In this document: positions 45,887 to 49,363 of the stretch, piece after piece
How positions within the stretch are numbered: position 1 is the first letter of the stretch
Layout: each line of letters begins with the position of its first letter
NCBI RefSeq assembly: GCF_002930615.1
Contig: NZ_PSNX01000011.1
Location: 62,001 to 126,000 of the forward strand
Direction: 5' to 3'
Source: Caldimonas caldifontis
GTDB taxonomy: Bacteria > Pseudomonadota > Gammaproteobacteria > Burkholderiales > Burkholderiaceae_C
Length of the DNA stretch: 64,000 bases
Translations under genes and position numbers: made by a program
The notes under the pieces: generated by a model
Database searches by the model: none
The model's input: only the letters and a program-made list of their open reading frames with translations
What the model was told of the DNA's origin: nothing

Positions 45887-45915
45887 TTGAAATGTGCTTG
45901 TAGCACATTTATTAT
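45887..45915 (+). promoter_or_regulatory. sigma70-type promoter with internal operator before the DUF5666 cassette
   Basis: TTGAAA (45887-45892) and TATTAT (45910-45915) stand 17 bases apart. The spacer is occupied by the perfect inverted repeat AAATGTGCT (45890-45898) and AGCACATTT (45902-45910) with a three-base centre. A repressor bound there would cover both promoter elements. The transcript would start near 45922, 50 bases before the first gene. Confidence 0.65.
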
Positions 45916-45971: not shown

Positions 45972-47159
45972 ATGCTGAAAGCCCTTTCCCAGCGCCTTGC
46001 GCGCCTGCGTTACGGCATCCCGATCGCTGCTTCGGTCCTGCTGGCGGCCTGCGGCGGAGGCGGTGGCGCCCCTTCGGAGACGCCCACCTCTTACACCCAG
46101 GGCCAGATCACCGGGTACGGGTCGATCATCGTCAATGGGGTGCGCTTCGACGATCGCCATGCCGTCGTCGTCGACGATGACGACCGTGAAGGCCTGCGCG
46201 ACGACTTGAAGATCGGCATGTGGGTCGAGGTGGAGGCCAGCGAGGTCGACCGCGATCGTGGCGTGGGCCGTGCGCTGCGCGTGCGCTGGGCGAATGAATT
46301 CGTCGGCCCGGTGAGCTCGGTCGATGCGGGCGCCAGCACCTTCGTGCTGTTCGGCCAGACCATCGAAGTGCGCCCTGCCACCCAGTTCGAGGACCTGCCG
46401 GCCGGGCTGGCCAGCCTGGCCCCGGGAGACGTGGTGGAGGTGCACGGCTACTTCAACGCGGCCACCAGCCGCTATGTCGCCACCCGGGTGGAAGCCGAGG
46501 ACGATGCCGATCACTACAAGCTGCGTGGCATCGTCAGCGAACTGGACACCACGGCACGCACCTTCCGGCTGGGGACGGAAACGATCGACTACAGCGGCGT
46601 GACCGATCTGCCCGCCAACCTCGCCGACGGCTTGCGGGTCCGCGTGCGCCTGCTCACCGAGCAGAATGCGTCCGGCCAGTGGGTGGCGGTGCGCGTGAAG
46701 CATGGCGTGCGCCGCCCCGCGCCGGATCGGGTGGAGTCCGAGATCGAGGGCGTGGTGGACACCTGCACCTCGAACACGTCGTTCAGCGTCAACGGCATTC
46801 CCGTGGACGCCAGCACGGCCGTCTTCCGCGACGGCTTCGTCACCTGCGGCGACGAGGTGGAGGTCGAGGGCCAGATCGAAGCTGGCGTGATGAGGGCCGC
46901 GGTGGTCGAGCGCGAAGACGATGACGACAGCCTGGAGCGCAACGAGCTGCACGGCACGATCGTGTCGGTCGACACCAGCGCAGAGACCTTCGTGCTGCGT
47001 CACGAGGTGCATGGCGAGATCTCGGTCTCCTACCGCAACGTCCTGCGCTACGAGGACGGCACCCGGGCCGACCTGGTCCCGGGTGCCGAGGTCGAAGTGC
47101 GCGGACGGTTCGTGCTCGGCGGCGTGCTGCAGGCGGCCCGGGTGGAATTCGAAGACTGA
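45972..47159 (+). CDS. DUF5666-repeat lipoprotein 1
   Basis: A 395-residue predicted lipoprotein with lipobox L-A-A-C ending at Cys27 and a Gly-rich linker. The mature part is built of about five DUF5666-type beta units of 60-70 residues. They begin at G-Q-I-T-G-Y-G-S-I-I-V-N-G, G-P-V-S-S-V-D-A, G-I-V-S-E-L-D-T, E-G-V-V-D-T-C-T and G-T-I-V-S-V-D-T, often with V-E-V-x-G motifs at their ends. It is strongly acidic. Function is unknown; small-ligand or metal binding at the cell surface is only a guess. A paralog is encoded two genes downstream. Confidence 0.75.
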   Translation: MLKALSQRLARLRYGIPIAASVLLAACGGGGGAPSETPTSYTQGQITGYGSIIVNGVRFDDRHAVVVDDDDREGLRDDLKIGMWVEVEASEVDRDRGVGRALRVRWANEFVGPVSSVDAGASTFVLFGQTIEVRPATQFEDLPAGLASLAPGDVVEVHGYFNAATSRYVATRVEAEDDADHYKLRGIVSELDTTARTFRLGTETIDYSGVTDLPANLADGLRVRVRLLTEQNASGQWVAVRVKHGVRRPAPDRVESEIEGVVDTCTSNTSFSVNGIPVDASTAVFRDGFVTCGDEVEVEGQIEAGVMRAAVVEREDDDDSLERNELHGTIVSVDTSAETFVLRHEVHGEISVSYRNVLRYEDGTRADLVPGAEVEVRGRFVLGGVLQAARVEFED

Positions 47160-47174
47160 GCAACGGGGCCCCCG

Positions 47175-47204
47175 GGGCGGGATGCCGAAAAGGGCATCCC
47201 GCCC
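47175..47204 (+). terminator. strong hairpin inside the DUF5666-DUF6502 cassette
   Basis: GGGCGGGATGCC (47175-47186) and GGCATCCCGCCC (47193-47204) form a perfect 12-bp stem with a six-base loop, followed by ATTTGC. The T-run is short, so it may partly terminate transcription or stabilise the upstream mRNA. Confidence 0.55.
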
Positions 47205-47238
47205 ATTTGCATCAGAATCGAGGCAGCCCCGTGCCGCC

Positions 47239-48147
47239 ATGACCCACGACCCGTCCACCCCCGCCGACATCACGCCCGAGCAGCAAGCCCTGCTGGACGC
47301 GCTGTCTTCGGTGCTGGAGCCCCTCGCGCGGCTCGCTGTGGCGCGTGGTGTCCCCTACGCGGCCTTCGAGGACCTGGCCAAGTCGGCCTTCGTGCGGGCC
47401 GCCCACGCCGCCCACCCGGACCTGCCCGACCACCGTCGGGTCAGCCGCATCAGCACGACCACCGGGCTGTCGCGCCGCGAGGTGACGCGCATCGTGCAGG
47501 CGCCCGAGCGTCCGGGGCCGCCCCGTTCGCCGGCCAGCGAGGTGTTTGCGCGCTGGATGACGGCCCCCGAATACCGCGATGCATCGGGCCGCCCGCGGGT
47601 GCTGCCGCGCCTGGGGCCTCAGCCCAGTTTCGAGTCGCTGGCCCATTCGGTCACGCGGGACGTGCACCCGCGCAGCCTGCTGGAGGAACTGGTGCGCCTG
47701 GACATGGCCCGTGTGGATGACGCCGAGGACACCGTCACCCTGGCGCGTGAGGCTTTCGTGCCGCGCGGCGACGCCGTGCGGATGGCCCGCTTCCTCGCCG
47801 ACAACGTGGGCGACCATCTCTCGGGTGCAGTGGCCAACCTGCTGGGCGACGGCACCCAGCATTTCGAGCAGGCCCTCTTTGCCGACGGGCTGTCCGACGC
47901 ATCGATGCCCGCCTTCCAGGCCCTGGTGAAGACGCAGTGGCAGGCCCTGCGCCAGGCACTGGTGCCGGCGCTGCACGACCTGATCGAGGCCGACCGTGCG
48001 GCTGGCCAGGCCCAGGCGCACCGCGTTCGCATCGGCCTGTACACCTATGACCTGGTCGAGACCCCGGCCCCCTCGCCGGCGCCCGAGCCAGCCAAACGTC
48101 CGCGAGGGCGTCCGCGCAAGGACGCCAACGGGAGAAACTCGTCATGA
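47239..48147 (+). CDS. DUF6502 family protein with helix-turn-helix and AT-hook
   Basis: A 302-residue cytoplasmic protein of the uncharacterised DUF6502 type. Residues 62-87 form a likely helix-turn-helix (R-R-V-S-R-I-S-T-T-T-G-L-S-R-R-E-V-T-R-I-V). A mid region follows with L-A-H-S-V-T-R-D-V-H-P-R-S-L-L-E-E-L, and the tail has an AT-hook, K-R-P-R-G-R-P-R-K at residues 286-294. These features point to DNA binding, so it may regulate the two flanking DUF5666 genes. Its stop overlaps the start of the second DUF5666 gene by ATGA. A biochemical role is not established. Confidence 0.75.
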   Translation: MTHDPSTPADITPEQQALLDALSSVLEPLARLAVARGVPYAAFEDLAKSAFVRAAHAAHPDLPDHRRVSRISTTTGLSRREVTRIVQAPERPGPPRSPASEVFARWMTAPEYRDASGRPRVLPRLGPQPSFESLAHSVTRDVHPRSLLEELVRLDMARVDDAEDTVTLAREAFVPRGDAVRMARFLADNVGDHLSGAVANLLGDGTQHFEQALFADGLSDASMPAFQALVKTQWQALRQALVPALHDLIEADRAAGQAQAHRVRIGLYTYDLVETPAPSPAPEPAKRPRGRPRKDANGRNSS

Positions 48148-49337
48148 ACTCCAAGATGCGCGCCCCCGGGCCGAGCCTGTGGCGCACCCTGCTCTCGGCC
48201 CTCGCGCTGGCGGCCTTCCTTGTCTCCTGCGGGGGTGGCGGCGGTGTGGGCGAAGGTGGCACCGGGTCCTTTGCCTCGGGCCCCATCTCCGGCTTCGGCT
48301 CGGTGCACGTTTCCGGGATCCGCTTCGACACCCGCGGTGTCGCCTCGGTGCAGTGGGAGGACGGCGAGGACCCACCGCTGCTGAGCGCACTGCAACCGGG
48401 CATGGTGATCGCCGTGGAAGCCGGACCGATCCGGACCGATGCGGCCGGCGTGCGACGGGCGGTGGCCGAGCGCCTCGTGCTGGCGGGCTCGCTGCGCGGC
48501 CCGGTGACCGACGTGCAGTGGCTGCAGCGCCGGCTGCGCGTGCTGGGCCTGCCGGTGCGCTTCAACGGCGCCACGGTGTTCGACGAGGTCCTGCGCGAAC
48601 AGATCCGCGAGTCCGGCCAGTTGCGCGAGCAGGAGGTGGAAATCTGGGGCTACGTGGACCGCTCCAGCGTCGTGCCGGAATTCGTCGCCACCTTCGTGGC
48701 CTCAGCCGACGGCGCCGCCTTCTACAAGGCGCGCGGTTTCGTGCGGGGCGTCGAAGGCGACGTGGTGCAACTCGGCGACGAACTCTTCGATTTCAGCGCG
48801 GTGGCCGGGCGTCCGGCGGTCGGCGACTTCGTGCGCCTGCGGGTGGCGACGGCCGAACCCGACCCCGCCTGGGAGGTGGTTGCCTGGGCACGCATCGAGC
48901 GCCAGGGCTTCGAGGAAGGGCGCGAGCTGGAGATCGAGGGCCGGGTGACGGCCGTGGTCGACGCCAACCGCTTCAGCGTGGACGGCCTTCCCGTCGTGGC
49001 CGCCGCGACGGTACCCGGTCTGGTCGAGGGCAGCTATGTCGAAGTGGAAGGGCGTTGGCGCGACGGCGCCTTGCAGGCCAGCGAGGTGGAGCTCAAGAGC
49101 GACGACGAGCTGGAGGAGCGCCGCAGCGAGTGGGAAGGCGCGGTGTCCGGCTTCGATGCGGGCTTGCGCCGCTTCACGCTCACCACCGATGCCGGCCAGC
49201 GTGTGGGCGTCGTCTACGACGACCAGACCGAGTTCGATGGCGGGTCGGCCGGCGAGCTCGGCAATGGCCTGCGGCTGGAGGTCAAGGGAACGCTGCGCAA
49301 CGGCGTCCTGCAGGCCGAGGAGATCGAGTTCGAATGA
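48144..49337 (+). CDS. DUF5666-repeat lipoprotein 2
   Basis: A 397-residue predicted lipoprotein with lipobox L-V-S-C ending at Cys29 and a Gly-rich linker, then about five DUF5666-type units. The first starts G-P-I-S-G-F-G-S-V-H-V-S-G-I-R-F-D, clearly parallel to the first unit of the other lipoprotein; later ones start G-P-V-T-D-V, G-F-V-R-G-V, E-G-R-V-T-A-V-V-D and E-G-A-V-S-G-F-D. It is translationally coupled to the DUF6502 gene. The two lipoproteins look like diverged paralogs that may act together. Function is unknown. Confidence 0.75.
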   Translation: MNSKMRAPGPSLWRTLLSALALAAFLVSCGGGGGVGEGGTGSFASGPISGFGSVHVSGIRFDTRGVASVQWEDGEDPPLLSALQPGMVIAVEAGPIRTDAAGVRRAVAERLVLAGSLRGPVTDVQWLQRRLRVLGLPVRFNGATVFDEVLREQIRESGQLREQEVEIWGYVDRSSVVPEFVATFVASADGAAFYKARGFVRGVEGDVVQLGDELFDFSAVAGRPAVGDFVRLRVATAEPDPAWEVVAWARIERQGFEEGRELEIEGRVTAVVDANRFSVDGLPVVAAATVPGLVEGSYVEVEGRWRDGALQASEVELKSDDELEERRSEWEGAVSGFDAGLRRFTLTTDAGQRVGVVYDDQTEFDGGSAGELGNGLRLEVKGTLRNGVLQAEEIEFE

Positions 49338-49363
49338 AAAAGGGGCGCCGTGTCGGCGCCCCT
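49336..49363 (-). terminator. intrinsic terminator after the tctC gene
   Basis: AGGGGCGCCG (49341-49350) and CGGCGCCCCT (49354-49363) form a perfect 10-bp stem with loop TGT. Read on the minus strand it is followed by TTTTT. It also lies just behind the + strand DUF5666 gene. Confidence 0.85.

Follow-up and report, generated by a model that had tools for sequence, protein, structure and literature searches.

The DUF6502 protein encoded within the window (the whole 64,000-nucleotide stretch of Caldimonas caldifontis DNA analysed here) by the middle gene of a three-gene cassette at 45972–49337 may be a HetR-like regulator of its own gene, with its signal borne by an exported partner; we give this reading as a whole a probability of about 0.5. 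Its parts differ in strength. That DUF6502 binds an inverted repeat over the cassette promoter and restrains the cassette is the best supported part and is very probable, and a distant relationship to HetR, or a strong resemblance to it, is somewhat favoured. Least secure is the part drawn by analogy, that a glycine-rich motif in the product of the adjoining gene is the ligand of DUF6502, as precursor or as released peptide, for which we would put the chance a little below even. The motif, the resemblance to HetR and the possible targets elsewhere in the genome go beyond an earlier note on this DNA. The regulator role for DUF6502 and the partner role for the DUF5666 lipoproteins are newly proposed here: no mention of DUF6502 or PF20112 was found in the literature searched by name and accession, and in excerpts of two papers that name DUF5666 it appears as a gene-list entry.

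The features of the cassette on which the argument rests are as follows (aa, amino acids; HMM, hidden Markov model).

45972 to 47159, plus strand: gene 1, exported lipoprotein of 395 aa with five DUF5666 units (PF18914, 122.7 bits; own HMM).
47239 (ATG) to 48147 (end of stop codon), plus strand: gene 2, DUF6502 protein of 302 aa (PF20112, 77.3 bits).
47428 to 47499, plus strand: predicted helix-turn-helix of DUF6502, helices at residues 64–75 and 79–87.
48144 to 49337, plus strand: gene 3, exported lipoprotein of 397 aa with three to four DUF5666 units (PF18914, 87.9 bits).
48249 to 48266, plus strand: motif GEGGTG, 3′ of the gene 3 lipobox Cys codon, counted as a looser GGIGGTG form.

All three products score above the curated Pfam cut-off, which is 27 bits for both families. 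The identification of the middle gene as DUF6502 in the earlier note stands, the Pfam match extending over residues 17–274; its figure of about five DUF5666 repeats per lipoprotein is right for gene 1 (five by Pfam and by our own HMM) and slightly generous for gene 3 (three and four, respectively). The coupling of genes 2 and 3 that it described is likewise borne out by a 4-nucleotide (nt) overlap, ATGA at 48144–48147. By eye, the products of genes 1 and 3 both have a lipobox-like Cys followed by Gly-rich sequence. Within the predicted helix-turn-helix, S69, R70, G76, L77 and R79 are invariant in the DUF6502 alignment.

Whether DUF5666 and DUF6502 genes neighbour each other elsewhere had been set beforehand as a test of the earlier note. 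We gathered 147 distinct DUF6502 loci, a non-random sample made up of the best-scoring 30 loci from each of two draws, the best 80 of 303 from a pattern search with a closely related alignment, four plasmids and chosen stretches; figures from a 274-genome draw of the class are less biased. The downstream open reading frame (ORF) was readable in 145 loci, the other two ending too soon, and was DUF5666 by our own HMM in 124 of them, so that the neighbourhood is not rare. It started no more than 10 nt past the DUF6502 stop in 129/145 and showed an ATGA-type overlap with DUF6502 in 64/145. Among the 274 genomes, DUF6502 occurred in 76 and DUF5666 in 72 (both families in 64, DUF6502 only in 12, DUF5666 only in 8, neither in 190). 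The C. caldifontis genome itself has a second DUF6502-DUF5666 pair with an SGGTG-type motif (G000:C2:76457-78210; L002, L074). A 4-nt overlap of the two genes is also seen on named plasmids from Azospirillum, Methylocystis and Rhizobium; on a Variovorax plasmid, 50 nt separate them. The three-gene form with an extra upstream DUF5666 gene recurs in L012, L013, L016, L017, L019, L023, L024, L027 and L028, and further in L111, L125, L155, L162, L167 and L170. G573 has an orthologous three-gene locus whose DUF6502 is 75% identical to that of the window; in G571 the identity is 62%, and the 8-kb stretch yielded no upstream DUF5666 gene. When the ORFs of the long loci were compared, no other family came close in frequency to DUF6502 (104 loci) and DUF5666 (82 loci); several other ORF clusters were antisense shadows, and the most frequent other real-looking neighbours were response-regulator-like ORFs (13 loci) and sensor-like ORFs (12 loci). 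Two loci are recorded here for their own sake. In L102 (4911-5658), from a Nitrospirota genome, transposase-like ORFs separate DUF6502 from the motif-bearing DUF5666 gene, and the DUF6502 of the metagenome bin L098 is 60% identical to the pattern-search query, the record label Bordetella parapertussis looking doubtful.

An inverted repeat accompanies DUF6502 in many clades; it was first found by aligning upstream regions within Nitrospira and Thiodiazotropha. Of 142 loci (5 of the 147 had too little upstream sequence), 68 have GGGA-N4-8-TCCC in the 400 nt ahead of DUF6502, compared with a mean of 5.5 and a maximum of 11 in shuffles, and in 5 loci of a downstream control whose denominator went unrecorded. 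A wider search found TGGGA-N5/6-TCCCA before DUF6502 in 85 of 135 loci, omitting the 12 of 147 in which the helix pattern was not found. At the 57 sites with a 6-nt spacer, T always precedes GGGA, and the A/T-rich spacer often resembles a -10 box. The first in-frame start codon most often lies 3 nt past the repeat (22/45 sites), and the message would therefore be leaderless. Over the 274 genomes, TGGGAW6TCCCA was found in 30/76 with DUF6502 vs 8/198 without (p = 1e-12), and a reversed-pattern control in 3/76 and 7/198, respectively. Twelve chosen DUF6502 genomes contain it 1 to 4 times each, 18 sites in all, of which 12 are within the fetched DUF6502 stretches and 6 elsewhere; the repeats of L116 and L118 lie at least 1.5 kb behind DUF6502 and not directly before a cassette gene. 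In six three-gene loci (L017, L111, L155, L162, L167, L170) TGGGA-N6-TCCCA stands ahead of the first DUF5666 gene, as the repeat does by coordinates in G034, G052, G089, G093, G126 and G137.

The window has a candidate operator of its own, lying over the cassette promoter.

45887 to 45915, plus strand: sigma-70-like promoter TTGAAA-N17-TATTAT, from a consensus scan.
45890 to 45910, no strand: candidate operator AAATGTGC-TTGTA-GCACATTT, from a palindrome search, between and touching the -35 and -10 hexamers.

TGGGA-N5/6-TCCCA itself is absent from the window. The same repeat as in the window occurs before gene 1 in G573, and two tandem copies lie directly before DUF6502 in G571. Searched genome-wide, its 17-bp core ATGTGC-N5-GCACAT occurs once in the C. 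caldifontis genome, once in G573 and twice in G571, every time at a cassette. The conserved repeat lies over the promoter of its own cassette, where an operon autoregulator would bind, and may serve such control. Alternatively, the inverted repeats might be bound by some other regulator, in the window by the product of a divergent LysR gene that shares the gap with the repeat, DUF6502 being a mere passenger. This is very improbable. The LysR gene did not turn up in the 8-kb stretches of G573 and G571, although both retain the repeat, and for this reason we assign the window repeat to DUF6502 and not to LysR; six other members of the genus, which lack a close DUF6502, were searched for the core and do not have it; and the TGGGA repeat tracks DUF6502 across the 274 genomes. 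The control of the flanking lipoproteins by DUF6502, which the earlier note had inferred, is supported, as far as sequence can speak, by this association of promoter repeat and DUF6502.

The downstream proteins share a Gly-rich motif, with [GNSDE]G[IVMLTA]G[GS][TS]G as the canonical pattern and relaxed forms counted as looser. Of the 145 downstream products, 105 have a canonical and 30 a looser motif behind the lipobox or signal peptide, some of the looser calls perhaps being chance (e.g. L072, with its motif 125 residues in); the GEGGTG of window gene 3 is one of the looser forms. Among 41 other lipoprotein-like ORFs of the same loci, taken as a control, there were 1 canonical motif, in an ORF that is itself a second DUF5666 protein, and 4 looser ones. 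The position of DUF5666 ORFs mattered: those downstream of DUF6502 had 90 canonical and 24 looser motifs (n = 125), and those upstream with a readable N-terminus 0 canonical and 1 looser (n = 13; 17 were counted, 4 of them cut before the motif region), gene 1 of the window being among the proteins without a GGxGGTG motif. DUF5666 ORFs elsewhere in the loci had 4 canonical and 5 looser motifs (n = 14), and at least four of these nine are DUF6502 partners after all (L102, L141 and two divergent L075 pairs). The 10/145 downstream products that match neither form comprise GSG or EGTG variants (L027, L057, L171), GGIGGT-V (L109), an apparent frameshift (L011), three loci without a same-strand partner (L031, L093, L146) and two in which another ORF was picked ahead of the motif-bearing DUF5666 gene (L102, L141).

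Downstream products other than DUF5666 mostly have a signal peptide or lipobox and then GGIGGTG or a near form. The motif is kept in FecR partners (5 of the 10 non-DUF5666 partners scanned) and in products without a Pfam match. Across the 274 genomes, 25 of 53 exact GGIGGTG matches lie, by coordinates, just downstream of DUF6502. None of the other 28 is in a DUF5666 protein, and DUF6502 was not found in the stretches fetched around them, mostly 3 kb. Nine of these 28 proteins are what we take, from their sequence, to be dihydrolipoamide acetyltransferase-like; two matches gave no motif ORF of at least 40 aa, and the remainder look by eye like false reading frames or proteins with no evident signal for export. 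Our strongest reason for connecting the motif directly with the regulator is this concentration in the slot behind DUF6502, across different domains. A nucleic-acid-level basis of the motif was considered and rejected: in the 105 motifs all four third bases of Gly codons are used and the Ile and Thr codons vary, so that the motif is conserved as a peptide. Two further observations concern the motif region. The FecR-domain partners in L056, L067, L068, L088 and L089 each contain several NGIGGTG-like copies, recalling multi-copy peptide precursors, and a small ORF ending in GRGGIGGTGICDK (L146:1631-1951, minus strand) follows closely, on the opposite strand, at a DUF6502 locus that has no normal partner.

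Conservation of the motif at the peptide level, together with the translational coupling (ATGA overlap in 64/145), would also suit a DUF6502 that acts as a cytoplasmic escort or maturation factor, recognising the motif of its nascent partner before export, with DNA binding secondary or absent. The operator-like repeat, however, is tied to genomes with DUF6502 and also stands before unlinked DUF5666 genes (see below), and the structural matches are to DNA-binding regulators. An escort role is thus very improbable.

Structure comparison pointed to HetR. AlphaFold2 models of the window DUF6502 and of a Nitrospirota-type relative from L106 reached predicted local distance difference test scores of 82.2 and 82.9, respectively. 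In Foldseek searches against the PDB, HetR ranked 1–3 for both, with expectation values (E) of 0.010, 0.015 and 0.27 for the window model (next unrelated 0.36) and 0.0046, 0.0064 and 0.014 for the L106 model (next unrelated 0.22). VIA-align, a second look at Foldseek's own list, ranked five HetR entries 1–5 for both models, with best Z of 8.2 and 8.4, and nine of its 10 HetR alignments were near full length, end to end and in the same direction. The proteins are also alike in length (275–302 aa for DUF6502, 299 aa for HetR), in that DUF6502 clades often have an inverted repeat with a GGG...CCC core, and in that the DUF6502 gene is apparently self-regulated. HetR binds an inverted repeat with an indispensable core gggN5ccc, its Arg62 and Lys73 contacting bases (PMC4649674); by eye, the spacing of these contact residues is similar to that of an invariant Arg and an Arg-Lys pair in the DUF6502 helix-turn-helix. 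The HetR hood, a helix-strand-helix-strand fold, possibly matches the C-terminal part of DUF6502, again by eye, the strands not being seen in the models. PatS-derived peptides lie along a hood strand and release HetR from DNA (PMC4649674), inhibition by RGSGR or RGTGR peptides has been described (PMC4649674, PMC12756182; for the RGTGR form, PMC7761841; for the peptide consensus, PMC4192349), and PatX is exported by Sec and cut outside the cytoplasm to give HRGTGR, which binds and inactivates HetR (PMC12756182). The DUF6502 partner resembles PatX in being exported, behind a signal peptide or lipobox, with a G-[ST]-G core. Unlike PatX, it is a large protein, a lipoprotein or one with FecR, and its gene is often coupled to that of the regulator.

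On this analogy DUF6502 may work like HetR, and the cassette would switch the expression of envelope lipoproteins locally and under its own control. In this picture DUF6502 would be a dimeric DNA-binding regulator with an N-terminal helix-turn-helix, a middle domain and a C-terminal hood; bound to the inverted repeat over its own promoter (TGGGA-N5/6-TCCCA in many clades, AAATGTGC-N5-GCACATTT in the window), it would restrain its own gene, the adjoining lipoprotein genes and a few targets elsewhere. The downstream protein, often translationally coupled, would be exported and would bear a motif of the GGxGG[TS]G type close to the N-terminus of its mature form, and the motif, in the unexported precursor or a released peptide, would bind the hood and alter DNA binding, as PatX does with HetR. 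The amount or fate of the envelope protein would thus feed back on its own synthesis. HetR mainly activates transcription, whereas the DUF6502 repeat overlaps the promoter, and the overlap suggests repression.

Repeat copies remote from the cassettes point to possible further targets. Of 55 strict repeats in the class draw, 14 were assigned by coordinates to DUF6502 and at least 11 to DUF5666. Reading 25 further repeat stretches gave a plausible exported or redox target in 11, of which one (L262) is not remote, being the upstream member of a DUF6502 cassette, and none in 14, which counts against the idea of a regulon. The plausible targets fell in 10/17 stretches from DUF6502 genomes and 1/8 from genomes without DUF6502. 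Remote repeats precede unlinked DUF5666 lipoproteins (L240, L242, L258; by coordinates also G021:C26, G045:C13, G080 and G184:C23), and two 9-haem MtrC/MtrF-like outer-membrane cytochromes lie directly behind remote TGGGA-N6-TCCCA (L264, L270). Other products behind remote repeats are a lipoprotein with a start resembling the MtrC/MtrF-like ones (L241), proteins with CxxCH by eye (L238, L243), beta-propeller lipoproteins (L260, L271, L272) and iron–sulfur (Fe-S) flavoproteins (L259, and also L279, whose genome yielded no DUF6502). The same families recur in different genomes, which suggests, in an exploratory reading, a small regulon for the envelope and electron transfer. In two genomes, remote repeats are also followed by membrane proteins that look alike, are about 290 aa long and match no Pfam family (L259:976-1848 and L265:980-1849, both minus strand).

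A number of results weigh against the HetR-like reading, besides the possible chance matches among the looser motifs. The two AlphaFold2 models were built from nearly the same relatives, no HetR structure match reaches E 0.001, a Z near 8 is possible without kinship, and the HetR alignments have root-mean-square deviations of 9–11 Å. Hhalign of two DUF6502 alignments with a two-sequence HetR alignment gave a probability of 0.2%. DUF6502 sites are GGG-N7-CCC or GGG-N8-CCC vs GGG-N5-CCC for HetR, the half-site of the window clade (ATGTGC-N5-GCACAT) differs even from the TGGGA type, and the partner motif GGxGG[TS]G lacks the flanking arginines of RG(S/T)GR in PatX and PatS. Since spacing, arginines and the nature of the partner differ, we keep DUF6502 out of the HetR family and say only that it may work like HetR. 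The wider search left 50/135 loci without a canonical operator, and neither repeat form was found before the second DUF6502-DUF5666 pair of the C. caldifontis genome. Spacer length goes with the type of recognition helix (N5 in 8/8 of the H type, N6 in 75/77 of the others, p = 9e-10), which speaks for the reading but is confounded with ancestry. The orthologous upstream lipoprotein in G573 has GGTG inside a Gly run, and three DUF6502 loci (L031, L093, L146) have no same-strand exported partner. Two weaker points concern the cassette as the earlier note described it, and not the likeness to HetR: genes 1 and 2 do not overlap, lying 79 nt apart, and the AT-hook that the note saw in DUF6502 is a similarity below the threshold and beyond the Pfam family match.

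Sequence kinship between DUF6502 and HetR was also looked for, and none was found: besides the hhalign comparison, PDB sequences gave no match to the DUF6502 profile at E 10, and a Pfam scan of 77 DUF6502 members at E up to 10 did not place HetR among the best 25 of 37 families. A search for the HetR family found no match in the C. caldifontis genome nor in control genomes and is hence uninformative. HetR sequences were not found on plasmids or in viral contigs, and among the literature matches listed no title addressed HetR outside cyanobacteria. Both HetR as a transcription factor and its flap and hood folds have been called novel (PMC4649674), and patX-hetR is reported as a module of filamentous cyanobacteria only (PMC12756182). 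We put forward tentatively, as rather doubtful, that HetR has relatives outside cyanobacteria in the DUF6502 proteins, found here in Proteobacteria, Nitrospirota and deltaproteobacterial genomes, and that the exported GGxGG[TS]G proteins are PatX counterparts.

The operator evidence holds without the peptide idea, and DUF6502 could be an ordinary operon autorepressor acting on the repeat and sensing a small molecule or nothing, while the motif acts extracellularly in sorting, spacing or processing. Its middle domain, of about 60–70 residues, partially matches the winged helices of IclR and MarR as well, although this likeness to winged-helix repressors is limited to one domain and the HetR-like predicted helix-turn-helix is N-terminal. 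The genes behind remote repeats (DUF5666, two MtrC-like cytochromes, three beta-propeller lipoproteins, Fe-S flavoproteins) could answer to redox state or metals. A role for the motif solely outside the cell, however, leaves unexplained that it is present in the gene after DUF6502 and absent from the similar upstream DUF5666 lipoprotein, and that FecR proteins in the same slot carry it. We regard the ordinary autorepressor as a possible but doubtful explanation. On the HetR-like reading, two uncharacterised families would share a role that can be tested, for which a DNA site, a peptide and a few targets can be named. Were it true, a regulator reading the Gly-rich peptide of its own exported partner would be an old, widespread bacterial signalling module, of which heterocyst patterning would be one specialised use and the control of surface lipoproteins and outer-membrane electron-transfer proteins another; a similar regulator and motif in other phyla would alter the account of where the patX-hetR module originated. 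Such a regulator would also indicate a circuit that controls surface lipoproteins together with MtrC-like cytochromes of the outer membrane.

Two further features lie within the cassette.

47175 to 47204, plus strand: hairpin with a 12-bp stem between genes 1 and 2, from palindrome search and folding.
48094 to 48129, plus strand: AT-hook-like tail of gene 2, residues 286–297 (7.0 bits, below the cut-off of 17.4).

The earlier note had one clean promoter serving all three genes. TTGAAA-N17-TATTAT is indeed the sole sigma-70-like site listed in 4.6 kb, where 0.2 would be expected; given the strong hairpin in the 79-nt gap between genes 1 and 2, however, the three genes need not share one transcript. 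The stretch 47168–47215 folds with -31.2 kcal/mol (z -4.7), and by eye in the alignment a hairpin of other sequence occupies the same position at the orthologous locus of G573. The hairpin may be an attenuator, a terminator or a processing site; no T run follows it, and no terminator appears in the scan. Just past gene 3, at 49342–49362, a GC-rich inverted repeat that the scan did not list looks by eye like a terminator stem.

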